From: a virus
IMG/VR virus record: IMGVR_UViG_3300050821_023950
Location: 1-40,876 of that record
DNA length: 40,876 nucleotides
Reading direction: 5' to 3' (one strand)
The notes beneath the pieces were generated by a model, which ran no database searches, was not told the DNA's origin, and saw only the letters and a list, made by a program, of their open reading frames with translations. Shown here piece by piece: positions 4,620 to 12,808 of this stretch. Position numbers and translations under genes: made by a program. How positions within the stretch are numbered: the first letter of the stretch is position 1; each line of letters opens with the position of its first letter.

Positions 4620-4911
4620 GGTCGCCTCCTTTCCGCCGGCGGGAGATCCGGTCGAGGACGGCGTTGGCGACCGTGATGTCGACGATGAACTCCTCGCTCT
4701 TCTCGCCGAACCGGGCCCGGAAGATGGTCACCTCGGCATAGATCGGGTGCGGAAGTTGGCTGATGGCCGACACGCCTTGCTTCTCGCCGTCGCGATAGCG
4801 GATCTCGACGTCGGCCGGCAGGAACTCGGTCTCGTCGAACGGGATCACGACCGCGGCGATCGGCTTGGCGATCGCGTGACGACCAGGGAGTTGCCTAGCG
4901 GAGGGCATCAT
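4612..4911 (-). CDS. Hypothetical protein coupled to MuB, 99 aa
   Basis: The gene starts at ATG 4911 (a second ATG follows at 4908) and overlaps the MuB stop as ATGA, so it is probably translated by coupling. The product has a basic N-terminus and a beta-rich middle (PIAAVVIPFDETEFLPADV, AEVTIFRARFG), then a helix and a basic C-terminus ending RRRKGGDRV. The open frame extends upstream inside MuB, but that part is a shadow of MuB. No family recognised. Confidence 0.55.
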   Translation of the reverse strand: MMPSARQLPGRHAIAKPIAAVVIPFDETEFLPADVEIRYRDGEKQGVSAISQLPHPIYAEVTIFRARFGEKSEEFIVDITVANAVLDRISRRRKGGDRV

Positions 4912-5915
4912 ACGAACGACGCTCCCTTCACATAGGCAAGCGCCTCGAGCACTTGCTTGCGCGATGGAGAGGTCGTATCGAAGTTGATCTTCGCGACCTC
5001 CAGCACGCACTTGACCGTGCGGAACGTGCCCTCGCGCTTGGCGGCAGCGAGAAGCACGTCGAGCGACGCATCGACCGCGTCTTTGTCCACGATCTGCGAG
5101 GCGATGAGCCTCACGTCCGCCGCCTTCGTCTTCTCCGAATCGAAGTGGACGCGGGCAATGACGCGCGAGGTGTACTGGGCGTGTGCGGCCGCGGCGCTCT
5201 CGGCGCGCTCGTAGACCTCTTCGTTGCCGCTGAGAACCAGAGGGCACTGCGCCTGGTCTGCGATGCAGCGCAGCTCGTCGACGCGCTTCAAATCGACCTT
5301 CTGCGCCTCGTCGACGAAGATCGTCGGCCGGTTGCGCCGCACGAGCATCTTCACGACCTCGCGCGTCGGCAGCGCGCGCTTGGTCACGCCCCCCAATCGA
5401 TAGACCAGCTCCATGCGCAGCGTCCAGGGAGCGCTGAGCTCGTCGGTTGCCGAGATGTAGACCGAGTTCCGCTCGGCGCGGAGATGAGCCAGAGTGCTCG
5501 TCTTTCCGAAGCCGGCGGCCGTGGAGATGATGGCGATCATCCCCGTCTTCTCGGCGATCAGCACCGCGCGCTCGATCTCTCGCGCCACGCTCGTCCTGAC
5601 GAACGGGAGCTTGCCGCCGATGGCCAGGCGCTGCTCTTCGTCCTCCAGATAGACGGCGATCCTGCGCGCCAGCTCGCCCTCGTCGGCGCCGTACTTGTTG
5701 CGCAGGAAATTGCCTACGGATGAGGCGCTGAGGGTCGCCCCGGTTCGCTTTGAAATGTTTGCCGCAAGCTCGGCTTCGCTGTACCCTCTTGCATCCTTGT
5801 GGTCTGCGAGCCGTCGACGCACCTGTTCGATGGCCGCCGGTTCGAGTGGCGCCTCTCCGGTTCTGGCCGGCGAGGCGCTTTCGTTTCCTGGTGACTTGAA
5901 AGCCGCGATCGTCAT
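4908..5915 (-). CDS. B: MuB-like ATP-dependent DNA-binding protein, 335 aa
   Basis: This is the target-choice and transposase-activating AAA+ ATPase of transposable phages. Walker A is AAGFGKTS at residues about 133-140, with Ala where many P-loops have the first Gly. Walker B is PTIFVDEAQ at about 197-205, and a sensor-1-like LVLSGNEEV follows at about 226. The N-terminal 100 residues include a helix-turn-helix (ELAANISKRTGATLSASSVG), as MuB has. Length 335 compares with 312 in Mu. The start is ATG 5915 with AAGGAGG upstream, 36 nt after the MuA stop, the usual A-B order. MuB polymerises on DNA with ATP, captures target DNA and delivers it to the MuA transpososome. Confidence 0.9.
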   Translation of the reverse strand: MTIAAFKSPGNESASPARTGEAPLEPAAIEQVRRRLADHKDARGYSEAELAANISKRTGATLSASSVGNFLRNKYGADEGELARRIAVYLEDEEQRLAIGGKLPFVRTSVAREIERAVLIAEKTGMIAIISTAAGFGKTSTLAHLRAERNSVYISATDELSAPWTLRMELVYRLGGVTKRALPTREVVKMLVRRNRPTIFVDEAQKVDLKRVDELRCIADQAQCPLVLSGNEEVYERAESAAAAHAQYTSRVIARVHFDSEKTKAADVRLIASQIVDKDAVDASLDVLLAAAKREGTFRTVKCVLEVAKINFDTTSPSRKQVLEALAYVKGASFV

Positions 5916-5951: not shown

Positions 5952-8279
5952 TCAGCTCGCGCCGAAAACGATTTCGTAGTGTTCGAAGCACATGTCCCTG
6001 TCGAAGTCCCCACGGCCGGGGCAGTCGAGGTCGTAGACGCACATCCCCGCTTCGTCCCTTGTCCTCTTGAGCTCGCGCAGCGCGGCCGCGCTCAGCTCCT
6101 CGGTCACGTACTGGCGCTCCTCGGCGGTCTCTTCGCTGCCGGGCCCCGCGTCGTGGATGAAGAGCGAGGACTCGCGCGCATGGCGCTCTCTGAGGAGGTC
6201 CGTATCGACAAACTGGGCGGGATCGTTGGGCTGGCTGGCGAGCGCGAGGTCGGCAGCGGAGAGACCGAATGGATTGGCGAGGCGTTCTTCGGCCGCGGCG
6301 ATCTGCCTGGCCAGCGGAGAGAGATGCCCATCGACGACCGTGATGACGCTGCCCTCGGCGCCGGCGACAGCCATCATCGGCGCTGGCACCTGGCCCTCTT
6401 CGCGCAGCGCGACGAGCTTCCGATACTCCTCGGCGTCGACGTCCGTGAGACGGCCGCGCATCTTCGGATGCATCGCCTCCCACTCGCTCTTGACCTCGTT
6501 CCAGAAGGCGTTGCGCCCGGCGATCGCCGCGGCCACCTGGGGCGATCGCCCCTTCGGCGCCGCGGCCGAGCTGCTCACGTCCGTCGCGACACCGATGAAG
6601 CGCCCCATGGCGTCGCACACGACGACGATCTCGGGCTTAGCTTCGTGGTACCGGATGACGACCTTCTGCAGCAGGTACCGCGCGTGCGCCGCCGGCTCCA
6701 GGCGATAGGTGCGCTTGTGGAACTGGATCCCGTTCCGCCCGACCTGCGCGCCGACCTTCTCGTGCCAGAAAGCCACAGCCAGGGCCGCCGGATCCGGATC
6801 CTGCCGCGCGAGGCGGATCGACTGGTCGGCGAAGACCTCGTTCGGAGAGCGGCCGTCCATGCCCGCGCCGCGGTGCGGCCTGGCGTTGTACTCCTCGACG
6901 TCGCGCTCGATCGCTGAGCGGAACTCGCTGAGCGTCGGCAGCTCGGCCGGATGCTTGCGCAGGTACTCGGCGCGGTCACTCCTCTGCCCCAGCGCGCCCC
7001 GGTACGACTCGAACTCCGGATAGAGCTGAACCCCGAGCGTGTTGAACCAGCGCTCGACTCCCTTACCTTGCGGCTCGCCCGGAATCGAGAAGATCGCTTC
7101 CACACCGAAGGGACCGACCACGCGGTTCACTGACTCGGGGTCGAACCCCGCGCACTCCTCGATCTTGGCCGTGCGCCGGCCGACCTCGTAATGCTTCCAG
7201 CCCCACTTGCCGAGGCCCCTCACGTAGTCGGCGCCGTTGTCGATGTGGCAGTAGCGGTTGAGGCCGTGCTTCAGCCACACCCGGTGGAGCGAGTCGAGGA
7301 TGTGCCGGCTGTTCGGCGCGTCGACGTACAGCTCGACGTCGAGCACCTTCCGCGAGCGCACGTCGTACCAGACCGTGATCCACGGGAAGTGCGAGACCTC
7401 GCAGAACGGCATCTCGCAGTTCACCGGCACGTCGGCCTGGTGATGATCGCTCTCGATCATCTCCATCACCTGGAGCGACTCGTAGTCGCCGATGACGAAG
7501 GGGCGGATTTGTTTGTGACGTTTCTCTGGGTAGCGGTACAGCTCGACCAGGCCCGGAGCCAGCCCCGAGAGGTGGTTGTAGATGGCCCGGTAGTGCGGCA
7601 TCTCCCACCCACGGGTGCGCGCTTCCTTTTCCAGCAGGCGATAGCACTGGGCGATCGTCCGCCGCGGGTACCGCAGGTACAGCGCCTCGGCGCGGAGCTT
7701 GATCTCCTCGGAGAATCGCACCCGGCCGCGCAGATGCGAGCCGTTCCGCCCGTCGACCAGGCCGTCGCGGCCTTGTTCTCTGTACGCGGTCGTCCAGCGC
7801 TTGAGCGAGCGCGTCGAGATCGAAAGCGCGTGGTCGCCGCCGTCCGGCAACTCGACGCGGAACGTCTCCCGATTCGCGTCGACGAAGCCTTGCTGCTGGC
7901 TCACCGAGCGGCGGCCGCCGGCCAGGAAGGAGCGCCAGGCCACCACGGCCTTCTCGCGCGCGATCGTCCGGGCCCGAACGCGCACGTCGGCCCGCGCGAA
8001 CTTCTCCTGGCGCTGCTCGATCGTCGCCTTCGCTGTGATCGAGGCCACGATCTCAGGATGGCTTTGAAGGTAGCGGGCCAGCGCGTCGTCTGGCAGAGAG
8101 TAAGGGTCGATGAGAATGGCGTCGGGGTTTCTCCCGATCACCTCGCGGTTGGTAATGCGGAGCGATGTCCCCAGGTTAGCGGTGCGGCGTACTGAGCGAG
8201 GATGAAGCCCGAGCAGCGAGGCCACTACCGACACCGGCAGCGGCGGGATCTCGGTGGCGGGATGCGCGAGGGCCGTCAC
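5952..8279 (-). CDS. A: MuA-like DDE transposase, 775 aa
   Basis: This enzyme nicks the phage ends and joins them to target DNA. I place the start at GTG 8279, overlapping the previous stop as GTGA. The RNase H-like core carries the catalytic triad: D278 in IESDHH, D347 in YCHIDNGADY, and E409 in GKGVERWFNTL. Upstream lie DNA-binding helices (residues about 15-45 and 105-240, including SISTRSLKRWTTAYREQG). A beta-barrel-like Mu-transposase C region follows (RTYRLEP.., about 510-560), then an extended acidic C-terminus ending in a short Cys-containing tail. At 775 residues it is longer than Mu A (663). It is followed at once by MuB. The binding sites at the phage ends are not in the window. 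Confidence 0.95.
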   Translation of the reverse strand: MTALAHPATEIPPLPVSVVASLLGLHPRSVRRTANLGTSLRITNREVIGRNPDAILIDPYSLPDDALARYLQSHPEIVASITAKATIEQRQEKFARADVRVRARTIAREKAVVAWRSFLAGGRRSVSQQQGFVDANRETFRVELPDGGDHALSISTRSLKRWTTAYREQGRDGLVDGRNGSHLRGRVRFSEEIKLRAEALYLRYPRRTIAQCYRLLEKEARTRGWEMPHYRAIYNHLSGLAPGLVELYRYPEKRHKQIRPFVIGDYESLQVMEMIESDHHQADVPVNCEMPFCEVSHFPWITVWYDVRSRKVLDVELYVDAPNSRHILDSLHRVWLKHGLNRYCHIDNGADYVRGLGKWGWKHYEVGRRTAKIEECAGFDPESVNRVVGPFGVEAIFSIPGEPQGKGVERWFNTLGVQLYPEFESYRGALGQRSDRAEYLRKHPAELPTLSEFRSAIERDVEEYNARPHRGAGMDGRSPNEVFADQSIRLARQDPDPAALAVAFWHEKVGAQVGRNGIQFHKRTYRLEPAAHARYLLQKVVIRYHEAKPEIVVVCDAMGRFIGVATDVSSSAAAPKGRSPQVAAAIAGRNAFWNEVKSEWEAMHPKMRGRLTDVDAEEYRKLVALREEGQVPAPMMAVAGAEGSVITVVDGHLSPLARQIAAAEERLANPFGLSAADLALASQPNDPAQFVDTDLLRERHARESSLFIHDAGPGSEETAEERQYVTEELSAAALRELKRTRDEAGMCVYDLDCPGRGDFDRDMCFEHYEIVFGAS

Positions 8280-8470
8280 GATTGCTCGCTCCCGCCCTCG
8301 ACCATGCGCATGTTGATGGCCCGGTCCGTGTTCGGGCAGAGCGCCCAGTATCTGAAGAGAAGATTGCCGATCTGGATCGGCCGGGAGCGTTGGAAGAACT
8401 CGAGAGACTTGTGATCCTCGCCGCAGCGAGCGCAATGAGAGACGTCGATCGTGATCCGACCGGTCGTCAT
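8276..8470 (-). CDS. 64-residue CxxC small protein
   Basis: The start is ATG 8470, overlapping the upstream stop as ATGA, and the stop overlaps the MuA start as GTGA. One CARC pair near residue 13 and a later single Cys (ALCPN) suggest partial metal binding. The rest is beta-rich and basic ([18 protein letters not shown]). Coupling on both sides supports a real gene. It belongs to a run of small Cys-rich proteins between the regulator and the transposase. Function unknown. Confidence 0.6.
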
Positions 8471-8886
8471 CGCGCGGCCTCCAACACCATCGCCGGAAAG
8501 CAGCGCGGGCAGAGGTCACGATTGCGGCCGACGTTCTTGCCGCACGCGCGGCACATGAACGCGTCGCACGTCTTCTTGCCCGTCTTCTTCGAAGGGCCGT
8601 CGCAGAGCAGGCCATCGCCGGCGTGGACGCTGCGTTTACAGAATGAGCACTTGCGCGAGCGGCCGCGGTTGCAGAGGATGACGGCGAACTGCGGCGCGTC
8701 GTCTTCGATGCGCGTCCACTCCACGCCGCTCTCGAAGGTCACTGACCCGCCCATCCCGAGCGCCAGGACTTCCTCACCATTCGCGCGCAGTGGGGAGTCG
8801 GGCGGAAGCGCATCGATCGACTTGCGGACTTTGGCCTCCGTCACCTGGCGGAAGTCGGAGCCGGCGAGGTAGCGGAAGGCCTTCAT
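8467..8886 (-). CDS. Double zinc-finger-like protein, 139 aa
   Basis: The start is ATG 8886, overlapping the previous stop as ATGA. Residues 1-75 are a mixed fold with no known motif. Residues about 80-135 hold ten cysteines in pairs ([24 protein letters not shown]), consistent with two zinc knuckles or a zinc ribbon, plus a lysine patch (SKKTGKK) between them. Such modules usually bind nucleic acid or protein. It lies between the regulator-proximal genes and MuA, so an early transcription or replication role is a fair inference. No family name can be given. Confidence 0.65.
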
Positions 8887-9464
8887 TGCGCGGCCTCCTC
8901 CAAGGGAGGGTTTGCGACGGGGCAGTTCTTGATGCGGTGAGAGCCTCCGGTGAAGTCGAGGTTGCGGTCGTCGGGTTGGTGGTAACCGCACACATGGTGA
9001 TGGACGCCGTCGATCACAAAACAGAACAGCGCCGGCGGTGGCGCACCACGAAGTCGGTGACGGTCGACGTTTTCGCAGCGGGGACCGATCCCCGGCCCGA
9101 GTTTTACTTTGCGAGTTGGCAAGCCTGAGCGTGCCGGTAGCTGCTTTGGTTTCGCCGACGTTGCAGGTTCGTCCTGTCCGAAAATGTCTTCGGGGCGCAG
9201 AACGGTGCGCGAACCTTCGAGCGCAAGAAACTTGTTGACGATGAGGCTGATCACGAATCGCTCTCCGCGAGTGAACTGCTCACGAAGGAAAGAAGGCTCC
9301 AGTAACCGCATCGCCTGATCTACCAGGGCGGTCACCTCGCTGTTGCTCTGAGGCGAAGGATCTGCGGGCCGCCCCGCCCCGGAAGCCGGGCGAAAGGCGC
9401 CGACCACTCGCGACAAGCCAAGAAGACATAGCGCCGCTAACGACGATCCCATCTGGCGGCGCAT
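8883..9464 (-). CDS. Hypothetical early protein with Cys/His-rich C-terminus, 193 aa
   Basis: The start is ATG 9464, touching the regulator stop as TGATG; a second ATG lies at 9452. The first 24 residues include a hydrophobic run ([18 protein letters not shown]) that could be a weak signal or membrane anchor. Residues 40-95 are helical ([17 protein letters not shown]). The C-terminal third has spaced Cys and His ([31 protein letters not shown]), which could form a metal site. No family recognised. It is the second gene of the leftward early operon. Confidence 0.5.
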
Positions 9465-9760
9465 CACGCGAGCTCCCGTTCGAGATCGGACAGGGCGATC
9501 CACCCCAGTGCTAGGCGCTGTCGCCGATCCAGTCTGCGCAGGACGCTCTTGTCGACGGAAAGTACCCTCGAAAGAGAGTCGAGGACACGATTGCTGGCGC
9601 CTGGGCGCTTCGCTCGTTCGAGGTCGGATAAGTAGGCCGGCGAGATCCCTGCTTTCGCGGCGGTCTGCCGGACGCTCAGCTTCGTCTTGGTCCGAAGTGA
9701 CCTGAGCGCACTCGCAAGCGGGTAAGTTTGCGGGTCAAGTGCTCCTGCTATACGTAGCAT
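9464..9760 (-). CDS. XRE-family helix-turn-helix regulator, 98 aa
   Basis: The gene opens the leftward early operon. An XRE/Cro-type HTH occupies residues about 15-70 (LRTKTKLSVRQTAAKAGIS, then PAYLSDLERAKRPG). I choose ATG 9760; an upstream TTG at 9796 is in frame but is better read as the -35 box of the promoter. With that promoter the transcript would start within a base or two of ATG 9760, giving a leaderless mRNA. The start codon also lies inside an inverted repeat that could be its own operator. It is either the immunity repressor or a Ner/Cro-like autoregulator of transposition genes; the opposed XRE gene at 9870 is the other candidate for repressor. Confidence 0.8.
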   Translation of the reverse strand: MLRIAGALDPQTYPLASALRSLRTKTKLSVRQTAAKAGISPAYLSDLERAKRPGASNRVLDSLSRVLSVDKSVLRRLDRRQRLALGWIALSDLERELA

Positions 9761-9820
9761 GTCAGCTACTGTAAGCCGCCAGTGGCCGCAAGTCAACCCC
9801 TAAAATAGCTCACTTGCTAC
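9747..9820. promoter_or_regulatory. Paired TAGC-N6-GCTA operator-like repeats
   Basis: Two copies of TAGC-N6-GCTA occur, at 9755-9768 and 9806-9819, with centres 51 bases apart, close to five helical turns. The first can be extended to GTAGC-N6-GCTAC and covers the -10 box and start codon of the leftward XRE gene. A further GCTA half-site lies at 9747. The second copy lies just upstream of the rightward XRE gene's promoter region. Spacing and dyad symmetry are as expected for XRE dimer sites; binding is inference. Confidence 0.55.
9768..9796 (-). promoter_or_regulatory. Early leftward promoter (TTGACT-17-TACAGT)
   Basis: On the minus strand TTGACT (9796-9791) is separated by 17 bases from TACAGT (9773-9768). 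The -10 element ends 7 bases before ATG 9760, so transcription would begin at or beside the start codon. An inverted repeat overlaps the -10 box. This is the only good sigma-70-type pair found upstream of the early operon. Confidence 0.6.
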
Positions 9821-9869
9821 TTGCGCACAGGCAACGTCGGCCTCATACTTGCCCGGTGTAAGCTGATAT

Positions 9870-10268
9870 ATGCTGACAGCCCACATGACGCGAGTAACCG
9901 TCGACGACGCAGGAATCCGTGCGATGCGGATCGCGCTCAAACTGACGCAGAGACAAGTCGCCACGCTGGCCGGGGTAGCTGAGAGCACCGTCAAACGCAC
10001 CGAGAAGAGAGGGCGCGGGCACAACTTCGTTCGGATTAAGAAGGTTCTCGACGAAGCGGAGAAGAAGGGGGCTCCCCGGGCGGCAGTCGAACACATCGCG
10101 ATAGAGATCGACGGTTCGCCGTCTGACTTAGTGCGCGAGTTCCAGGCGCTCCTCGACGGCATGCAGACGGTCGAACAGCAGTGGGCCGCGGTGCGGGCGT
10201 TCGCGCTGACGGCCGGGAGCGTGGCGGAAGCGCGACTCCGCAGGGGAACAACCGGAGATGACAAATAG
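9870..10268 (+). CDS. XRE-family helix-turn-helix regulator, 132 aa
   Basis: This gene is divergent from the leftward XRE gene and is the first gene of the rightward unit. The HTH is at residues about 12-45: IRAMRIALKLTQRQVATLAG, then VAESTVKRTEKRG. Residues 75-132 form a helical tail that may dimerise or contact a partner. ATG 9870 gives 132 residues; ATG 9885 gives 127 and also fits, and neither has a clear Shine-Dalgarno. The stop overlaps the next start by 11 nt, so the next gene (a TPR-type protein) is translationally coupled. It probably acts as a lysogeny/lysis regulator binding the nearby inverted repeats. Confidence 0.8.
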   Translation: MLTAHMTRVTVDDAGIRAMRIALKLTQRQVATLAGVAESTVKRTEKRGRGHNFVRIKKVLDEAEKKGAPRAAVEHIAIEIDGSPSDLVREFQALLDGMQTVEQQWAAVRAFALTAGSVAEARLRRGTTGDDK

Positions 10269-11424
10269 CCCGATCGATGCGGCACTCTCCACGCTGCTCG
10301 CTTGCGGGCTGGAGGGCATCATCAATAAAGAGGCGGCCGCGAGTTTGGCGGTCGCTGACGATCAGCTTGCGGAATCGACCGCCAGCGAGATCCTCAGCCT
10401 CGATACTAGGGCGATTGATGCATTCGAAGTTGGCCCGGAGCTGAAGAGACCCGCGGTCGCATGGAAGCTACTCGACTCTCTCGACGCTGAACGGTACCAC
10501 TGGAATCCAGAAAGACTCCTGGCCGTGGCCAAGCTCGCCTATGTAATCGCGTCCTCCCGACCGAGCAGCGCCATGCTTGAGTTCATCGCTCTCAAAGAGC
10601 AGGCGACGGCACTCAAACTGTTGTTTCGTTTTGATGACGCTCACCGGACGCTCGACCGGGCGGCTATCGTGGCCCGTCGCACATCGTCATCGGTCGTCAA
10701 CCTTGCAATTGTCGATTACGCCCGCGCCGGCGTGTGCTGCGACGCGCAACAGCGCCAAGACGCGCTCATCTTGCTTCATCGTGCGCAAGCCGTGTTTCGG
10801 TCTACTGGCGAGGATCGCCGGCTCGAGCAAAGCAAGAGCCTGGAGGCGACGATCCTCTTCGGCCTCGGTCGCTACGAGGACGCTTGCGTGATCTATGAGG
10901 CGGCGCTCTCATCTGCGGTCGCGAGGAACGACAATCAGCGAATGGCAATGGAGGTCGGCAACATCGGCCACTGCTGCATGATGCTAAGAGAAACGGAAGC
11001 CGCGAGAGGTTACCTCTCCATGGCGGCAGAGATGTATGCCGCAGAAGGAATGGGAATAGGTCAAGCGACTGCGTTGCGTGCGCTTGGCCGCCTCACGATA
11101 CGGGAAGCCGGCGCCGATGAGGAGGAAGAGATCCTTCAGGCTTCAACTATATTCGAGCGTCTCGGCTTGATTGGGCAATGGTGCCTAACGCGACTCGCAC
11201 TCGCGGAAGAGTTGCTTGAATTTGCCCCAGATGCCGACGTCGATGTGATTTGCCAGGAGGCGCTGAATCGCGCCGTCGATGCGCGGATAGGTGTGATCAC
11301 GGCGAGTGCGTTGGCGCTCCTGAGCCACGCAGCGAAACAGCGCGACGTGACTCCGGATTTTGTGCGCGAGGTGTCGTGCTGCATTGATCCATCAGCAATC
11401 ACTGCGAGCGCAAATGAGCGCTGA
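10258..11424 (+). CDS. TPR-type helical-repeat protein, 388 aa
   Basis: ATG 10258 lies inside the end of the XRE gene (11-nt overlap). The protein is almost wholly helical. Units fitting TPR spacing include KLLFRFDDAHRTLDRAAIVA (residues about 120-140), ATILFGLGRYEDACVIYEAA (about 200-220) and MLRETEAARGYLSMAAEMYA (about 240-262), with degenerate repeats on both sides. There is no HTH or enzyme motif. An XRE DNA-binding protein fused or coupled to a TPR protein is the design of peptide-sensing RRNPP regulators (Rap, PlcR, AimR); here the two parts are separate, overlapping genes. A role in signal input to the switch is an inference from that arrangement. Confidence 0.7.
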   Translation: MTNSPIDAALSTLLACGLEGIINKEAAASLAVADDQLAESTASEILSLDTRAIDAFEVGPELKRPAVAWKLLDSLDAERYHWNPERLLAVAKLAYVIASSRPSSAMLEFIALKEQATALKLLFRFDDAHRTLDRAAIVARRTSSSVVNLAIVDYARAGVCCDAQQRQDALILLHRAQAVFRSTGEDRRLEQSKSLEATILFGLGRYEDACVIYEAALSSAVARNDNQRMAMEVGNIGHCCMMLRETEAARGYLSMAAEMYAAEGMGIGQATALRALGRLTIREAGADEEEEILQASTIFERLGLIGQWCLTRLALAEELLEFAPDADVDVICQEALNRAVDARIGVITASALALLSHAAKQRDVTPDFVREVSCCIDPSAITASANER

Positions 11425-11429
11425 CAGGG

Positions 11430-11465
11430 AGGGAGGAGCGGCCGCCGCGGCCGCCGCTCCTCCCT
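11430..11465. terminator. 13-bp GC-rich stem-loop between convergent genes
   Basis: AGGGAGGAGCGGC at 11430-11442 is the exact reverse complement of 11453-11465, with a 10-nt loop. It lies 5 bases after the TPR-gene stop and 7 bases after the end of the convergent peptide gene on the other strand. There is no T-run on either side, so it is a probable bidirectional terminator or mRNA-end hairpin rather than a classic intrinsic terminator. Confidence 0.6.
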
Positions 11466-11472
11466 GTGGCAG

Positions 11473-11658
11473 TTACGGATGTGGGTATTGCGGATCGTCC
11501 ATCGGCGACGGAAGCAACTTCTTCACGAGGTGAATCAGTTGTGCCAGTACGCCGCCGGGCGATCCAGCGTCCCGACGAGGTGCCGCGATCGCGGCGTTTG
11601 TGGAGAGGAAAACGACGAGTAGAATTGCGGAAATACGGCCCTTGGTCCTTGATGACAT
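11473..11658 (-). CDS. Small secreted peptide precursor, 61 aa
   Basis: The start is ATG 11658 with AGGAGG five bases upstream, a strong site; the open frame extends upstream without one. The N-terminus is a signal peptide: SSRTKGR, then ISAILLVVFLSTNAAIAA with a likely AIAA cleavage. The predicted mature part is about 35 residues: basic PRRDAGSPGG, an amphipathic helix (VLAQLIHLVKKLLP), and an acidic/proline end. It is convergent with the XRE-TPR pair and separated from it by a hairpin. It might be a signal pre-peptide, a small membrane-active peptide or an envelope decoy; the sequence does not decide. The good ribosome-binding site and signal peptide support a real gene. Confidence 0.65.
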   Translation of the reverse strand: MSSRTKGRISAILLVVFLSTNAAIAAPRRDAGSPGGVLAQLIHLVKKLLPSPMDDPQYPHP

Positions 11659-11704
11659 GAACGCCTCCTGTTGTCGGCTTCGGCGGCATTGCCGAGCCGG
11701 TATC

Positions 11705-11730
11705 GTTATAGACACTGAAGGCGCCTTCAG
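11705..11730 (-). promoter_or_regulatory. 16-bp perfect palindrome next to a -10 box
   Basis: CTGAAGGCGCCTTCAG (11715-11730) is a perfect 16-bp palindrome. Four bases beyond it on the minus strand is TATAAC (11710-11705), five of six matches to the -10 consensus, about 47 bases before the secreted-peptide start. No good -35 box is seen, so an activator or the palindrome-binding protein may be needed. It also lies about 70 bases upstream of the rightward exported-protein gene and could serve both. Confidence 0.45.
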
Positions 11731-11798
11731 CTAGGAGAGGATTTGGGCGGCCGTTCCCCTACCCTCGGGAAGCAGGAAAGATGAAAAGGAGTGCCAGA

Positions 11799-12347
11799 AT
11801 GATCAAACGAGTCATGGCTTTGGGGTTCCTCACCGCGGCTGCGGCATCCTTCGCTTTCGCGGCGGCCCCGCAACCTACCTGGGAGAAGGAGCCGGCTGAG
11901 GTACGCGGTGTGCCTTTCGGCGCGAGTGAGGCTCTCGTTAAAAAGACTCTACGGATCGGATGCGTATCTATCGGAGAGGACCGGGAGTGCGTACAGCGCT
12001 TCAAAATTGGGGACATCCGGGTCGTGGGTGGGTTCGACGTCACCGATGATCGGATGCACACCGTGACGTTCCTTTTCGACTCGCCCAACTTTGAGGCGAT
12101 GAAGGCTGTACTTATCGAGAAATATGGCCCTCCTACCGAACAGCACTCGGAGCCATTTCAGACGAAGAGTGGCGCGACCTACGACAACACGGTGCTCACC
12201 TGGGTCGGCGTCGAGGTTCGTGTTGACGCGCGAAAGTTCGGATCGAGTCTCGATAGCTCGCGCGTTGAATTCAATACGTCTGAGTGGCTCCGCAAACTCG
12301 CCGACAGAGATGCGATGAAAGCGAAGAAGGCAGCGACGGATTTTTGA
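11799..12347 (+). CDS. Exported hypothetical protein, 182 aa
   Basis: I start at ATG 11799, which has AAGGAG about 8 nt upstream; an in-frame ATG at 11781 lacks one. The N-terminus is a signal peptide (MIKRVMALGFLTAAAASFAF, cleavage near AFAA). The mature protein has a VPFGASEALVKKTL motif, two cysteines 12 residues apart (RIGCVSIGEDRECVQ), and an alpha/beta pattern with VEVRVDAR strands. The shape 'GV.FG.s...v...l......C' followed by 'L.EKYG.P' recalls small periplasmic proteins of environmental bacteria that measure or bind ligands, but no function is assigned. It looks like phage-carried cargo rather than a virion gene. Confidence 0.6.
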   Translation: MIKRVMALGFLTAAAASFAFAAAPQPTWEKEPAEVRGVPFGASEALVKKTLRIGCVSIGEDRECVQRFKIGDIRVVGGFDVTDDRMHTVTFLFDSPNFEAMKAVLIEKYGPPTEQHSEPFQTKSGATYDNTVLTWVGVEVRVDARKFGSSLDSSRVEFNTSEWLRKLADRDAMKAKKAATDF

Positions 12348-12355
12348 AAGGTCAC

Positions 12356-12808
12356 ATGAGATCCTTGGTTACGACAGCAACGCTCGCTCTCGCGTTGATC
12401 GGCTGCGCTACGGCCTACCAATCGAAGGGACCCACCGGAGGGTATTCGGATACGAAGTTAGGTCCGCGGACCTATCAGATTCGCTTTCAGGGGAATGGGT
12501 TCACGGTGAACGACAGGGTTTCGGTCTTCATGCTCCGACGAGCTGCAGAGATCACGCTCGAAAACGGGTTTCGCTACTTCGTGCTGACCGCGCAGCAAAC
12601 GCAAACATCTCATTCCTACGGCGGTGGCGGCATCAGCGCGAACTTTGCGAATCAGTCTTCCATTGTCCGTTTTCTGGATGATGCGAGTGGCGATGCCGCT
12701 GCGGCCGATGCGGTAACCGTCGTTAAGGAAACCGACGCCGAAGCGAGGGGCGCGCTCACGGAGAAGGCACGCGCTGCGCTTGCCAAATTGGGGGCGCCGT
12801 CGAAGTGA
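12356..12808 (+). CDS. Lipoprotein of the CC0125/CC1285 type, 150 aa
   Basis: The start is ATG 12356 with GAAAGG four bases upstream, 8 nt after the previous stop. The N-terminus is a lipoprotein signal with the lipobox LIGC (LALALIGCATAYQ), so the mature protein would be anchored by a diacylglycerol at Cys18 or so. The mature region (GPTGGYSDTKLGPRTYQIRF, then GNGF, RRAAEITLENGFRYFVL) matches the conserved pattern I recall for CC0125/CC1285-family lipoproteins of Gram-negative bacteria. Function of that family is unknown. It forms a small operon with the upstream exported protein and is a likely lysogenic-conversion gene. Confidence 0.65.
   Translation: MRSLVTTATLALALIGCATAYQSKGPTGGYSDTKLGPRTYQIRFQGNGFTVNDRVSVFMLRRAAEITLENGFRYFVLTAQQTQTSHSYGGGGISANFANQSSIVRFLDDASGDAAAADAVTVVKETDAEARGALTEKARAALAKLGAPSK

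Follow-up and report, generated by a model that had tools for sequence, protein, structure and literature searches.

What is a gene for a small secreted peptide doing beside the putative repressor of a transposable phage? The question is raised by the 40.9-kb viral record IMGVR_UViG_3300050821_023950, a Mu-like transposable phage, which was analysed over its whole length of 40,876 nucleotides (hereafter the window). Its lysis-lysogeny region holds an XRE gene, a TPR gene and a pre-peptide gene (Table 1), from which an earlier note on this DNA had proposed a peptide-tuned switch with the HTH and the TPR on separate chains. We think it fairly probable that this cassette is an immunity (lysis-lysogeny) regulator of host origin, in which the XRE protein is the repressor, a TPR partner stands in place of an S24 domain, and the exported peptide is the ligand of the TPR protein.

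Table 1. Coordinates in the window of the cassette, its control elements and the transposition genes
Feature	Position	Strand	Basis or remark
MuB	4908-5915	-	
MuA	5952-8615	-	
Another small XRE gene, transcribed away from the cassette; position like Cro/Ner	9464..9796	-	Pfam HTH_31
XRE/HTH_3 gene, proposed immunity repressor, DNA-binding half	9870..10268	+	132 aa; Pfam HTH matches
XRE/TPR overlap, 11 nt (ATGACAAATAG), translational coupling proposed	10258..10268	+	sequence
TPR solenoid gene, proposed peptide receptor/sensor half	10258..11424	+	388 aa; TPR_12
Pre-peptide gene, 61 aa, predicted secreted	11473..11658	-	signal-peptide rule, RBS, homologues
C-terminal DDPQYPHP, proposed mature signal	11476..11499	-	conserved D[DE]P..P.P-COOH in phage and host peptides
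Signal peptide MSSRTKGRISAILLVVFLSTNAAIA, cleavage AIA|AP by eye	11584..11658	-	sequence
GGAGG, Shine-Dalgarno of the peptide gene	11664..11668	-	5 nt before ATG
TATAAC, possible -10 box	11705..11710	-	TATAA in 4/5 phages
16-bp perfect palindrome CTGAAGGCGCCTTCAG, proposed operator of the peptide gene	11715..11730	.	
Bipartite block GGTAGGGG-N-TCTCCT	11733..11763	-	resembles host ECF-type promoter GTAGGGA-N15-CACTCCT

The phage, its relatives and its host

A search based on the transposase gave four related phages (L002, L003, L004 and L005), whose MuA proteins are 71-76% identical to that of the window; in three of the four, TerL is 86% identical to the window's. A related prophage (L059) with the same gene order lies in the Acidobacteriota genome G039, the identities with the window being 34% for MuB, 29% for MuA, 52% for TerL and 65% for the methyltransferase. 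When TerL was searched across the class of G039, a match was found in G039 only. A MuA profile had no match in the genome contigs, a sequence search with the window TPR among viral contigs, phages and plasmids gave no useful close relatives, and a search for further phages with the phage TPR profile returned only those already known. Because of the related prophage in G039 and of a peptide family restricted to its class (see below), the host is probably a soil Acidobacteriota bacterium, hence a diderm. The remark in the earlier note that the host is of Gram-negative type holds, since both the prophage and the closest relatives are in this diderm phylum. The cellular genomes compared are mostly MAGs.

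Composition and conservation of the cassette

Are the three genes a real unit? The earlier description of the locus agrees with the sequence in each point: the XRE gene does overlap a 388-residue TPR gene by 11 nt, the convergent gene for a 61-residue signal-peptide precursor does have a good ribosome-binding site, and the palindrome does stand next to TATAAC. The XRE gene has an alternative start at 9885, and its product gives HTH_3/Xre-like matches in Pfam (E 1e-4 to 2e-5). The TPR protein matches TPR_12 with E=1.1e-6 and 29.2 bits, slightly under the cutoff of 30.1. The ends of the TPR gene and the convergent peptide gene are 48 nt apart.

The earlier note had suggested a search for the same synteny in related phages, and the trio proved to be kept: an XRE gene, a TPR gene and a secreted peptide (57-59 aa) are at the same place in all four related phages, or five of five with the window, and the TPR and peptide genes are adjacent in every one. 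The TPRs of the related phages are 20-27% identical to that of the window. Three of these phages share the convergent peptide gene of the window, and L003 has it behind the TPR gene and co-directional with it. The XRE-TPR overlap is 4 nt in L003 and in the host locus L131, and divergent small ORFs comparable to the second XRE gene are found in L002, L005 and L131. For the codons of the window and L004 peptides dN/dS is about 0.24. This value, together with the presence of the trio in all related phages and of the palindrome in five of five, indicates that the cassette is not a product of chance.

An exchange at the repressor locus

If the XRE gene is part of a regulator, what does the locus carry in a phage with no such cassette? 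In the L059 prophage, between MuA and the homologue of window gene 11781-12347 (o11781), there is a single gene with HTH_3 and Peptidase_S24 domains (S24 E 7e-8), and neither a TPR gene nor a peptide gene was found at that slot. The HTH half of this repressor is 53% identical to the L004 XRE over 119 aa (E=6e-39) and 39% identical to the L005 XRE over 56 aa (E=6e-8). Thus L004 has a free TPR gene where the L059 repressor has its S24 domain. The window XRE is at the same locus and is too diverged from the L059 repressor for a direct match (E about 1-3), so that for the window the repressor argument rests on position and the link goes via L004 and L005. Pfam detected no Peptidase_S24 domain in the window or in its sister phages. 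Because of the L059 slot and the homology of the HTH halves, we propose that the XRE protein is the immunity repressor and that the TPR protein replaces the SOS-sensing S24 domain. Compared with HTH-S24 phage repressors of the CI/LexA type, the cassette has the same locus and, in L004 versus L059, a homologous HTH half, whereas the C-terminal S24 domain is absent and a free TPR protein is found instead.

The secreted peptide and its promoter

The 61-aa ORF has what a crude in-house rule classes as a Sec-like signal peptide; of the 229 ORFs of 45-150 aa in the window, only 5 satisfy this rule when read from their first start. All five phage peptides (57-61 aa) pass it. They have a common plan: a signal peptide, AP, a variable part, an amphipathic stretch, and D..P.P-COOH. 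The mature part of the window peptide contains the cationic amphipathic stretch QLIHLVKKLLP (moment 0.59). The phage endings resemble those of host peptides, ..DEPTFPRP in L004 against ..DEPTFPHP in a host and ..DPVLPKP in L005 against ..DEPVLPKP. Between the window and L004 the peptides have 65% likeness and the TPRs 20% identity. These figures depart from a simple one-to-one co-divergence and count against the proposed role of the peptide as ligand.

How is the peptide gene controlled? The palindrome, as GAAGGCGCCTTC or GAGGGCGCCCTC, stands upstream of it in all five phages, and each phage has a single copy of the block GGTAGGG(G/A)-N-TCTCCT, which lies upstream of the peptide gene and is followed by the palindrome. 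In the host class, GTAGGGA-N14-16-CACTCCT has more than 100 hits in 11 genomes versus none for the reversed control; these sites precede peptide genes, sigma-TPR operons and other genes, and the motif resembles an ECF-type promoter. The palindrome is present in 10 of 11 host-class peptide promoters that bear the block, compared with 3 of 30 other promoters that bear it. The shared bipartite element and palindrome suggest that the peptide is, at the least, an output under regulation. As to what binds the palindrome, the phage XRE is disfavoured, because the palindrome is nearly constant where the XREs differ strongly, and for this reason a host factor seems the likelier candidate.

A family of TPR-peptide pairs in Acidobacteriota

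Where did the TPR-peptide pair come from? The lead to cellular relatives was a scan of genome contigs with a TPR motif, and the relation was then tested with a profile of phage TPRs only. With this five-phage profile, five Acidobacteriota MAGs (Thermoanaerobaculia, Holophagales, others) proved to have 15-55 members each. Its top cellular matches are two G039 genes, apparently chromosomal (E 6e-65 and 7e-59), both followed by phage-like peptide genes, with the endings FDQPAVPIP.. or LDELTVPKP. In the five MAGs, the peptides beside the TPRs are small and secreted; they have an amphipathic stretch rich in W and carry (I/M/L)DPNG at the C-terminus.

In two genomes, 27 of 36 and 25 of 27 peptide-profile matches are no more than 1.5 kb from a TPR gene, where 0.9 and 0.7 are expected; counted from the other side, 30 of 55 and 26 of 52 TPR genes have a peptide within that distance. 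Since this profile was partly trained on the same loci, an independent test was made with a second profile, built from the five phage peptides and three from G039, against 149 genomes of the G039 class. It gave 31 hits in 12 genomes, and a family TPR gene adjoins the peptide at 29 of the 30 loci fetched. The earlier note would have given up its reading if the peptide gene were common without its partner; with G039 excluded, 26 of 27 independent hits in the other 11 genomes adjoin a TPR gene. The same profile had no hit in 200 Gemmatimonadota genomes, an empty result without a positive control. The cassette itself carries the mark of the family, a TPR of the phage-profile family next to a secreted peptide with a conserved C-terminus.

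The gene directly upstream of the host TPR gene codes either for an ECF-type sigma (Sigma70_r2/r4, in many cases with a 4-nt overlap) or for an XRE protein. The sigma-coupled TPR proteins are zf-HC2-like, with an N-terminal H..CxxC seen by eye and unscored by Pfam, and the L003 phage TPR keeps such a part (zf-HC2 E=0.001). The family is comparable to ECF sigma/zf-HC2 anti-sigma pairs, in that cellular relatives with this N-terminus lie behind ECF-type sigma genes; it differs from them in the cytoplasmic-type TPR sensor with a secreted peptide and, in the phage, in the XRE in place of the sigma. The phage layout itself, XRE-TPR with a convergent peptide, is found in host genomes at L122, L123, L127 and L131, the last of which may be a prophage-like region. 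The convergent orientation, which the earlier note called not standard for RRNPP, is ordinary in the cellular family. In more distant Acidobacteriota, single-chain XRE-TPR proteins occur with a convergent peptide (L069, L073), another fused XRE-TPR is found at L024, and a fused HTH+TPR chain at L021 was confirmed by Pfam. These fused relatives support a joint action of the phage XRE and TPR. Some host precursors have two to three repeated DPxG units, and up to four peptide genes stand in tandem (L117), as expected for processed signals.

The TPR-peptide pair is thus proposed to be a host module taken up by the phage. On a wider scale, we lean slightly towards the view that Acidobacteriota have a large undescribed signalling family of TPR sensors and secreted pre-peptides, with output via ECF sigma or XRE and, in some lineages, tens of paralogs in one genome, and that Mu-like phages of these bacteria took it up in place of the SOS-sensing part of their repressor. 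This would be an arbitrium-like switch in a diderm, perhaps hearing or speaking the peptide dialects of the host. No description of such a family in Acidobacteriota was found in the open-licence literature.

Comparison with RRNPP and arbitrium systems

The AF2 model of the window TPR is an all-helical solenoid with a mean pLDDT of 83.5. By Foldseek against PDB it matches LGN-peptide complexes (E=3e-7), Rap-pheromone complexes (4gyo, E=2.8e-6) and the Rap of phage phi3T (1.1e-5), the Rap pheromone receptors being the top bacterial matches; TPR solenoids are generic and the rmsd is large (5-13 A), as expected for superhelices. The model of the fused relative L021 has similar matches, with its HTH poorly modelled. 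The earlier note had staked its reading on a peptide groove in the TPR protein and a contact with the XRE; the model offers a solenoid of the peptide-binding type, and the contact stays a proposed step.

Five computational criteria have been published for RRNPP systems (PMC10075063), and the cassette agrees with all of them: the pre-peptide has 61 aa (range 10-100), the receptor has 388 aa (range 250-500) with TPRs seen both as TPR_12 and as the AF2 solenoid, the signal peptide is of Sec type by the in-house rule, and the genes are directly adjacent. Homology to Rap, Rgg, NprR, PlcR, PrgX or AimR was not found, the best RRNPP sequence match in PDB being RapF with E=0.035 over 76 residues, and AimR is absent among the sequence or fold matches listed for the window TPR. 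Nor is the host one of the Firmicutes, as the relatives are in Acidobacteriota; in the literature searched (PMC10075063 among it) RRNPP and arbitrium are treated as Firmicutes systems. Since the five criteria agree while homology and host range do not, the cassette may by analogy work like RRNPP or arbitrium systems and is not classed as a member. The peptide-tuned switch first suggested is partly supported. Of the three conditions that would have refuted it, loss of the synteny and frequent peptide genes lacking the pair did not come true, and the one on the TPR groove and XRE contact was countered in part. The split pair acting together has gained support from the single-chain relatives (L021, L024/L073) and from the HTH-S24 replacement.

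With RRNPP/RRNPPA systems (Rap, PlcR, NprR, AimR) the cassette shares a TPR receptor of this size class beside a Sec-secreted pre-peptide, an HTH linked to it as in many members, and the Rap-pheromone fold matches. It differs in being in a diderm phylum, in the split of the phage HTH and TPR between two chains, in the coupling of its host versions to ECF sigma genes, and in the class of its proposed mature peptide (..P.P-COOH or DPxG). The arbitrium system (AimR-AimP) of SPbeta-group phages likewise has a phage TPR regulator and a secreted peptide in the lysis-lysogeny region, whereas here the phage is Mu-like, a separate XRE repressor is at the S24 slot, and the peptide gene is convergent, not co-directional as in arbitrium, L003 being the exception.

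Proposed mechanism and alternative explanations

How might the cassette act? The XRE protein would repress the early operon and the TPR protein would bind the XRE. The exported precursor would be cut, and its C-terminal piece, about DDPQYPHP, would be the ligand, re-entering the cell, binding in the TPR groove and altering repression. Repression would then track the peptide level, i.e. phage or lysogen density, instead of or besides DNA damage, and the source of the module would be the TPR-receptor and secreted-peptide family of the Acidobacteriota hosts. The XRE-TPR contact, cleavage, re-import and peptide binding are putative steps, and that high peptide favours lysogeny is suggested with low confidence. 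Re-import is less obvious across a diderm envelope, which counts against tuning by the peptide. Peptide-sensor pairs recur in host genomes, in numbers of up to dozens; together with the S24 slot this makes the cassette a candidate peptide-tuned switch outside Gram-positives. If this is true, peptide communication would extend to diderms, in the Acidobacteriota, which are abundant soil bacteria, and a phage would be seen to swap DNA-damage sensing for density sensing exactly at the site of the S24 repressor. Short candidate ligands, such as the above octapeptide, and receptors are now available for direct testing.

Could the peptide have a role other than signalling? It may be an antimicrobial or membrane-active peptide or a bacteriocin, for which the XRE-TPR pair only provides regulation or immunity. 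The conserved cationic amphipathic helix of the mature part would suit this, and the many paralogs per genome would fit a competition arsenal. However, distant host peptides have no cationic helix and still keep the (I/M/L)DPNG C-terminus, sometimes two to three times; the receptor is of cytoplasmic type and stands beside sigma or XRE regulators, in the phage at the repressor locus; and no dedicated exporter was noticed. We regard this explanation as unlikely. Rather improbable as well is a lysogeny regulator that senses something else (stress, a metabolite or a partner protein), with the peptide only as its regulated output. The host-type bipartite element and operator-like palindrome of the peptide promoters are in line with it, as are the many host TPR genes for which no peptide was detected, given the 30 of 55 and 26 of 52 that had one. 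It has to face two findings that suggest recognition of the peptide: its near-obligate pairing with a TPR (26/27), and C-terminal P.P or DPxG motifs in an exact position.

The regulator with the peptide as its ligand is also preferred to two simpler readings. That an ordinary phage repressor has unrelated neighbours, the trio being a coincidence of gene order, could be argued from TPR and XRE domains being common and a 61-aa ORF being short; it is refuted by synteny, as all five phages and 12 genomes of the host class keep the association and the peptide dN/dS is 0.24, and we give it almost no credence. A toxin-antitoxin or defence cassette, with an antitoxin-like XRE and a small toxic peptide, is very improbable and was rejected. 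The XRE matches do include the HipB/Y4mF antitoxin family, below cutoff, but there is no toxin domain, the small protein has a signal peptide, the cassette occupies the place of the repressor, and the host versions have ECF sigma genes as partners in place of XRE.

Peptide genes and their neighbourhood

In the related phages L004 and L005, the C-terminal ends of the ORFs opposite the inverted peptide unit resemble the C-terminus of the co-directional peptide of phage L003, GLDDIDYTPPKP. These ORFs have the look of a relic left behind when the promoter-peptide unit became inverted. In the window, two secreted or lipoprotein cargo genes adjoin the cassette.

Locations of the features
Feature	Location	Strand	Remark
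ORF opposite inverted peptide unit	L004 7028-7300	-	C-terminal end ..MGIDYTPPKP
ORF opposite inverted peptide unit	L005 6470-6958	-	C-terminal end ..VRIAYTPPKKP
Cargo gene, CC0125/CC1285-family lipoprotein	window 12356-12808		NCBIfam match, E=4e-23
Cargo gene	window 11781-12347		also in prophage L059
4 tandem peptide genes, 3' of a single TPR gene	L117 4436-5205		near-identical genes, C-terminal end ..SQDDIIIPRP
Radical-SAM/SPASM-like protein (sequence reading)	L023 6158-7654		immediately 3' of HTH-TPR member

In the Thermoanaerobaculia/Holophagales genomes G007 and G009 there are dozens of TPR-receptor genes per genome (e.g. loci L060, L061, L073 and L078), often adjoined by a secreted peptide whose C-terminus carries a (C)IDPNG-type motif; at times this motif occurs in 2 or 3 copies within a single precursor. 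The radical-SAM/SPASM-like protein of L023, from a Holophagales MAG, may modify a peptide.

A bipartite ECF-like promoter motif, GTAGGGA-N15-CACTCCT, is found genome-wide in genomes of the host class (loci L132-L161). Each genome has roughly 3 to 28 of these motifs, which lie 5' of sigma-TPR operons, of peptide genes and of several conserved small proteins.
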